64,000 nt of DNA from positions 186,001 to 250,000 of the forward strand of contig CALIMH010000004.1 of NCBI GenBank assembly GCA_938028725.1, given 5' to 3'. Origin of the DNA: an uncultured Anaerolineae bacterium (GTDB taxonomy: Bacteria; Chloroflexota; Anaerolineae; J036; Brachytrichaceae). Below are positions 32,636-33,653 of the stretch, piece by piece. The translations under genes were made by a program, and so were the position numbers. A model generated the notes under the pieces. The model ran no database searches. It had not been told where the DNA came from and saw only the letters and a program-made list of their open reading frames with translations. The stretch's first letter is position 1. Each line of letters begins with the position of its first letter.

Positions 32636-32860
32636 TTACTGTTCCTCTGATGATGTCTGCTTGGGTGCTTTGTTGCCAATCTTAACCAATTGCACTTGCG
32701 CTTGGTAGCCCTTCTGCGCGTCATCACCCAAAGAGATTTTGCTGTTCGCAAAGTAGCCCACGCTGCCGGTGCTGAACTCCTTTGGGCTGAGCAGCAGCAT
32801 GCCGACTTCCCTATCGTTTACGTAAAACTTCACCTTGACGATGATAGGTCCGTTCGTCAT
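32636..32860 (-). CDS. Small hypothetical protein upstream of UXS
   Basis: 74 aa, not recognised. Predicted mostly beta ([20 protein letters not shown]), then a charged tail KQTSSEEQ. No signal peptide. ATG 32860 is preferred because TATCAT (32870-32875 on the minus strand) lies 9 nt before it; a longer upstream form would run into the 50-bp repeat array. It ends 2 bp before the UXS start and faces the rluE-like gene divergently across that array. Confidence 0.6.
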
Positions 32861-32884
32861 CGCACTATGATGATAGCGCACGCG

Positions 32885-32923
32885 ATGCGCTACATAGCCT
32901 TGTTCAAGCAACACGGTGTATAA
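32885..32923 (+). CDS. 12-codon mini-ORF, first upstream copy of the rluE start
   Basis: ATG at 32885 encodes MRYIALFKQHGV and ends at TAA 32921-32923. The peptide matches the N-terminus of the downstream synthase (MHYIALFKPYGV). A GATGAT hexamer lies 10 nt upstream. It could be a leader peptide or a decaying duplicate; no ribosome-binding site is present. Confidence 0.35.
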   Translation: MRYIALFKQHGV

Positions 32924-32934
32924 TAGCGCGCGTG

Positions 32935-32973
32935 ATGCGCTACATAGCTTTGTTCAAGCTGCATGGTATATGA
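32935..32973 (+). CDS. 12-codon mini-ORF, second upstream copy of the rluE start
   Basis: ATG at 32935 encodes MRYIALFKLHGI and ends at TGA 32971-32973. TATAAT at 32919-32924 lies 10 nt upstream, making it as well placed for leaderless translation as the real gene. Function unproven. Confidence 0.4.
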   Translation: MRYIALFKLHGI

Positions 32974-32984
32974 TAACGCGCGTG

Positions 32985-33653
32985 ATGCACTACATAGCCT
33001 TGTTCAAGCCATATGGTGTGCTGTCCTGCTTCACCCACGAGCTGCAGCAGGGCGAGCGGCCCAAACGCACGCTCAGTGAGTTTGGGCTGCCACCTGGTGT
33101 GTATGCAGCCGGGCGCTTGGACGTGGACAGCGAAGGGCTGCTGCTGCTCAGCGATGACGGTCGGTTCATCCACCGCGTCACACACCCGCGTTACAAGCAG
33201 CCTAAAACGTACTGCGTCCTGGTCGAAGGCGTGCCCACCACTGACAAGCTTGCCCAACTGCGACACGGTGTGATCGTCAAAGGCTATCGCACGCAGCCAT
33301 GTGAGGTGGAATTGCTGAGCAACCCCCCAGCCTTGCCCCCTCGGGAGAAGCCAGTCACGCCGCACGGACCGACCGCTTGGCTGATGCTCACGCTGCGCGA
33401 GGGGAAGAAGCGCCAGATACGCCACATGACCGCTGCCGTTGGCCTGCCCACCTTACGGCTGGTGCGCGTGCAAATCGGGTGTGTCAAACTCGATGGACTG
33501 CTGCCCGGCCAATGGCGCGACTTGACGCCAGCCGAGGTGCGTGGCTTGATGCATCCGCTGCCGCAGCGCACCACCGATGCCCGCCCGCAGCAAGTACGGC
33601 CGCATGCCCATCAACATGGCAAATCACGACGGATTTGCTCAGCAAACTCATGA
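32985..33653 (+). CDS. RluE/RsuA-family 23S rRNA pseudouridine synthase
   Basis: 222 aa. Converts uridine to pseudouridine in rRNA. N-terminus YIALFKPYGVLSCFTHE, catalytic Asp46 in AGRLDVDSEGLLLLS, RYKQPKTYCVLVEG, and REGKKRQIRHMTAAVGLPTLRLVRVQIG near the end. There is no S4 domain, which favours RluE over RsuA. ATG 32985 (TATGAT 10 nt before, no Shine-Dalgarno sequence) aligns with the family start; the first codons are present twice more upstream. The stop overlaps a possible upstream start of dinG, indicating an operon. Confidence 0.9.
   Translation: MHYIALFKPYGVLSCFTHELQQGERPKRTLSEFGLPPGVYAAGRLDVDSEGLLLLSDDGRFIHRVTHPRYKQPKTYCVLVEGVPTTDKLAQLRHGVIVKGYRTQPCEVELLSNPPALPPREKPVTPHGPTAWLMLTLREGKKRQIRHMTAAVGLPTLRLVRVQIGCVKLDGLLPGQWRDLTPAEVRGLMHPLPQRTTDARPQQVRPHAHQHGKSRRICSANS

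Follow-up and report, generated by a model that had tools for sequence, protein, structure and literature searches.

A tandem triplication of a predicted -10 element and start codon ahead of an rluE-type pseudouridine synthase gene in a Chloroflexota genome

Introduction

Why should the beginning of a gene be repeated three times? The question arises in a 64,000-nucleotide stretch of DNA (the window) from a 19-contig, 2.28-Mb genome assembly of a Chloroflexota lineage (Anaerolineae) in the same family as Candidatus Roseilinea, where a 50-bp segment that includes the start of a pseudouridine synthase gene is present in three tandem copies. Two kinds of bacterial gene start are relevant here. 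Leaderless genes with a TANNNT motif ~12 bp before the start are known in bacteria, including Chloroflexi (PMC3160421), and near-symmetric -10 elements give divergent starts that are usually 18 bp apart, the definition allowing 7-25 bp (PMC10268837). The array is probably a triplicated module that combines a bidirectional -10 element with a leaderless start, in which copy 3 is live while copies 1 and 2 act as extra promoters, decay as duplicates, or both.

The 50-bp array

Two repeat searches find three ungapped copies of 50 bp on the plus strand (copy 1, 32870-32919; copy 2, 32920-32969; copy 3, 32970-33019), with pairwise identities of 84-86% (8, 7 and 8 mismatches per 50 positions). The triplication proposed in the initial annotation is real, but its coordinates are shifted by +1 relative to the reported 32869-33018. 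Tandem Repeats Finder describes it as period 50, 3.0 copies, 84% matches and score 212 over 32870-33017, the highest score among five arrays in the window. The array is found once in the genome, and the three occurrences of the unit core all lie within 32870-33019. It is also the only tandem array detected across a gene start in a 777-kb sample of the genome, other arrays with a period of at least 20 being located mostly within ORFs. Two large tandem repeats were seen outside the window, one within an ORF (period 282 x 1.9; G000:C4:150768-151294) and one at a contig end (period 153 x 4.2; G000:C6:1-644).

As the array was read from the assembled sequence of a genome in 19 contigs, an artefact of assembly deserves mention. 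An expansion error would, however, yield identical copies, whereas any two of these show 7-8 mismatches in 50 positions. The sequence is also coherent across the junctions and in the flanks, and such an origin is therefore hardly credible. Tandem duplication is supported; ten relatives of genera g3 and g6 carry a single copy against three in the window. The event cannot be called recent, as had been suggested, because the copies diverge by 14-16%.

Genes flanking and overlapping the array

The array leads into a gene for an rluE-type 23S rRNA pseudouridine synthase of 222 aa (32985-33653, plus strand). The product matches PF00849 (3.5e-18) and scores above the cut-off of the broad model TIGR00093 (5.4e-46), in agreement with the function first assigned to it; the best specific model is that of RluE (NF008487, 2.5e-44), at 151 bits against an equivalog cut-off of 284. 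On the other side lies a divergent ORF of 74 aa (32636-32860, minus strand), which adjoins rluE in g3 and g6 as well and for which a family-model search gave no known family. A DinG/DnaQ-type helicase-exonuclease is encoded downstream of rluE. The rluE frame is open across copies 2 and 3 as far as GTG 32916, so that a false 23-aa N-terminal extension may be annotated. Such an extension (a 245-aa open frame) was considered and rejected, because the start in close relatives lies a single codon upstream of the window's rluE ATG. In two loci of genus g8 (L133 in G007 and L134 in G013) the rluE match is split in two, which suggests that the middle of the protein carries an insertion in this genus.

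The ATG codons of copies 1, 2 and 3 are at 32885, 32935 and 32985. The first opens mini-ORF 1, MRYIALFKQHGV (32885-32923, plus strand), with its TAA stop (32921-32923) inside TATAAT 32919-32924; the second opens mini-ORF 2, MRYIALFKLHGI (32935-32973, plus strand), with its TGA stop (32971-32973) inside TATGAT 32969-32974. Both are dead ends of 12 codons terminated by the predicted -10 hexamer of the following copy, just as initially described; this arrangement arises because a 50-bp unit shifts the frame, 50 not being divisible by 3, and because a junction T precedes ATNATA. From each stop to the following ATG there are 11 nt, the ATG after mini-ORF 2 being that of rluE. Only the frame of copy 3 runs on, as MHYIALFKPYGVLSCF..., into the pseudouridine synthase. 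The eight-residue beginning, first read as the same in every copy, reads MRYIALFK for copies 1 and 2, whereas copy 3 has MHYIALFK. The KP codons that are universal in relatives are kept only in copy 3, as part of conserved KPYG codons, and their loss from copies 1 and 2 is as expected of sequence that no longer encodes the enzyme.

Predicted -10 elements and copy junctions

At the outer edge of copy 1, the sequence ATGATA reads TATCAT on the minus strand (32870-32875), 9 nt from the ATG of the divergent gene, whose predicted -10 it is; through it, copy 1 appears to have kept the ancestral link to this gene. The element looks like a -10 on both strands, in the window and in the ten relatives, as a symmetric promoter should. 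It is thus a candidate pseudo-symmetric bidirectional -10 common to rluE and the divergent gene, which the initial annotation overlooked.

On the side that faces rluE, the base preceding ATGAT is G or C in relatives and T, the last base of the previous copy, at both junctions of the window. The junction T improves the predicted -10 to TATAAT between copies 1 and 2 (32919-32924, plus strand) and to TATGAT between copies 2 and 3 (32969-32974, plus strand), the latter being the predicted -10 of rluE. Judged by these motifs, the junctions would have produced better -10 hexamers and the mini-ORF stops in one event. Both hexamers stand 10 nt before an ATG (32935 and 32985), within the ~10-12 bp typical of leaderless starts. 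The same spacing had been claimed for all three copies, and here copy 1 departs from it: the hexamer in register there, GATGAT (32869-32874), makes a poor -10, which counts against the favoured explanation. An alternative TATGAT lies 3 bp upstream (32866-32871, plus strand), with a 13-nt spacer. A consensus scan of the array for a -35/-10 promoter found none. Inspection of the sequence before ATG 32985 revealed no Shine-Dalgarno-like stretch, so that the simplest route to translation of rluE would be a near-leaderless transcript originating in copy 3.

Placement of -10 hexamers across the genome

Is such an arrangement usual in this genome? The placement of -10 hexamers was assessed in the 777-kb sample, where 240 divergently placed genes supplied 360 candidate ATGs. 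Within the interval -18 to -12 ahead of these ATGs, 39 starts of TATAAT (one mismatch or none) were counted, whereas the rate at positions further upstream predicts 7.8; the hexamer ranks first among all 20 of its permutations, used as a control, every other one reaching less than half of 39. For TANNNT the same test counts 55 where 21.8 are expected, and the signal is present in each half of the sample. Gene starts were derived from ORFs instead of being called by a trained program, a simplification that should weaken the signal, not create it. Given this five-fold enrichment of TATAAT-like hexamers, near-leaderless starts appear to be common in the genome, and the leaderless-type placement first proposed for the array agrees with the way divergently placed genes are built here. 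Shine-Dalgarno-like sequences are likewise enriched in the sample; with both signals enriched, the genome seems to use both modes of initiation.

Comparison with relatives

The comparison loci all come from outside the window's genus. The ten family relatives (three of g3, seven of g6) have the same divergent pair with a single start, and all 27 comparison loci other than the window's, within the family or outside it, contain a single copy of the rluE start. When the first 33 nt are compared with the sequence upstream of them, the best hit reaches at most 19/33 in these 27 loci versus 29/33 in the window. As the other loci carry one copy, the array seems, by comparison with the other genera compared, to be limited to the window's lineage.

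The single-copy loci also show what was triplicated. In the g3 and g6 relatives the gap between the divergent gene and rluE is 22-30 bp and contains ATGATA in 10/10 cases. TATCAT, on the minus strand, is 9-10 nt from the ATG of the divergent gene, and on the plus strand 8-15 nt separate the end of NATGAT from the rluE ATG; each of the seven g6 genomes has a 9-nt spacer on both strands. There, 23 bp separate the two start codons, which fits the 7-25 bp range if both genes are leaderless. The plus-strand hexamer of the single-copy relatives is weak (GATGAT or CATGAT), and their rluE promoter may therefore sit elsewhere. A single pseudo-symmetric ATGATA is kept across genera (window 32861-32884 and loci L004-L008, L010, L011, L013, L014 and L016). 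The divergent genes that share it are probably leaderless, to judge from the spacing, with start codons as close as 22 bp.

Selection, operator and RNA structure

Does the array do more than multiply a start? One proposal is a selected expression device, in which three tandem leaderless promoters, together with termination-reinitiation, raise or regulate rluE. The -10 hexamers improved at the junctions and the stops placed 11 nt before the next ATG agree with it, and longer transcripts would need coupling, as no Shine-Dalgarno-like sequence precedes 32985. That no indel disturbs the exact 50-bp spacing and that the first eight codons are nearly intact also counts against simple drift and could hint at selection. 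However, a conserved core along the unit is not significant (permutation p = 0.16, any 26-bp window allowed), the changes are too few for a test of peptide constraint, and none of the relatives compared conserves the array. Nothing shows selection on the mini-peptides, and we regard a selected device as unlikely. A chain of leaderless modules, in which each mini-ORF passes ribosomes on to the next start, so that every one of the three promoters yields productive transcripts and rluE output grows with the number of copies, is more doubtful still.

The array might instead contain operators. An inverted repeat, TAGCGC-N7-GCGCTA, is perfect in copies 1 and 2 and could bind a regulator; it is, however, broken in copy 3 and absent from the relatives' loci, and its one other site in the genome equals the number obtained with a backward control pattern. 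The recurrence of this palindrome is not that of a regulon; it was rejected as an operator, and we give an operator array very little weight. Nor is it at all probable that the repeats build a regulatory RNA leader or attenuator. The mini-ORFs may be transcribed, as such a leader would require, but the RNA folding z-score of the array is +0.84 (weaker than most shuffled sequences), an Rfam search returned no family match, a scan for terminators no terminator-like site, and mini-ORFs 1 and 2 contain no run of one regulatory codon. These tests on the array show neither an operator nor an RNA structure.

Discussion

Because the folding, Rfam, inverted-repeat and conservation tests are unremarkable, extra promoters that are retained or drifting are favoured over a selected device. 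The triplicated segment would comprise a pseudo-symmetric bidirectional -10, a leaderless-type start and the first 11-12 codons of rluE. Its outer copy would still drive the divergent gene via TATCAT, and copy 3 would provide the real, near-leaderless start of rluE. Copies 1 and 2 would be dead-end starts whose sequence drifts, except that they probably still attract RNA polymerase; their promoters would yield longer transcripts led by a leaderless 12-codon mini-ORF, from whose stop reinitiation at the ATG 11 nt further on is possible. We infer transcription from each copy, with a neutral or mildly tuning role.

The array is a clean natural case of a short tandem duplication multiplying predicted promoters together with start codons, the predicted -10 being bettered at the junctions. 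It also exposes a compact layout conserved in the family, in which two divergent, probably leaderless genes would share one symmetric -10. If the extra copies are active, they offer a natural test of competition or coupling between leaderless starts.

A literature search for leaderless starts combined with tandem duplication produced no relevant paper. Tandem promoters can arise by short segmental duplication. The array resembles them in that a segment bearing a promoter lies head to tail before a gene, and differs in that its unit extends past the start codon into the first codons, so that each extra copy carries a stop-terminated mini-ORF. As in the symmetric bidirectional promoters of bacteria (Warman et al., 2021, as described in PMC10268837), one AT-rich element would serve as a -10 on both strands, with two close divergent starts; compared with what is described there, the genes here are predicted to be leaderless or nearly so, and the element is kept across genera and triplicated in the window. 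Leaderless TANNNT genes (PMC3160421) share with rluE a hexamer that begins 16 nt before the ATG, the lack of a Shine-Dalgarno sequence and the genome-wide enrichment, whereas the array places three hexamer-plus-ATG modules ahead of rluE, two of them dead ends. The triplicated bidirectional -10/leaderless start module is thus new in its particulars and, as a short tandem duplication, ordinary in kind.
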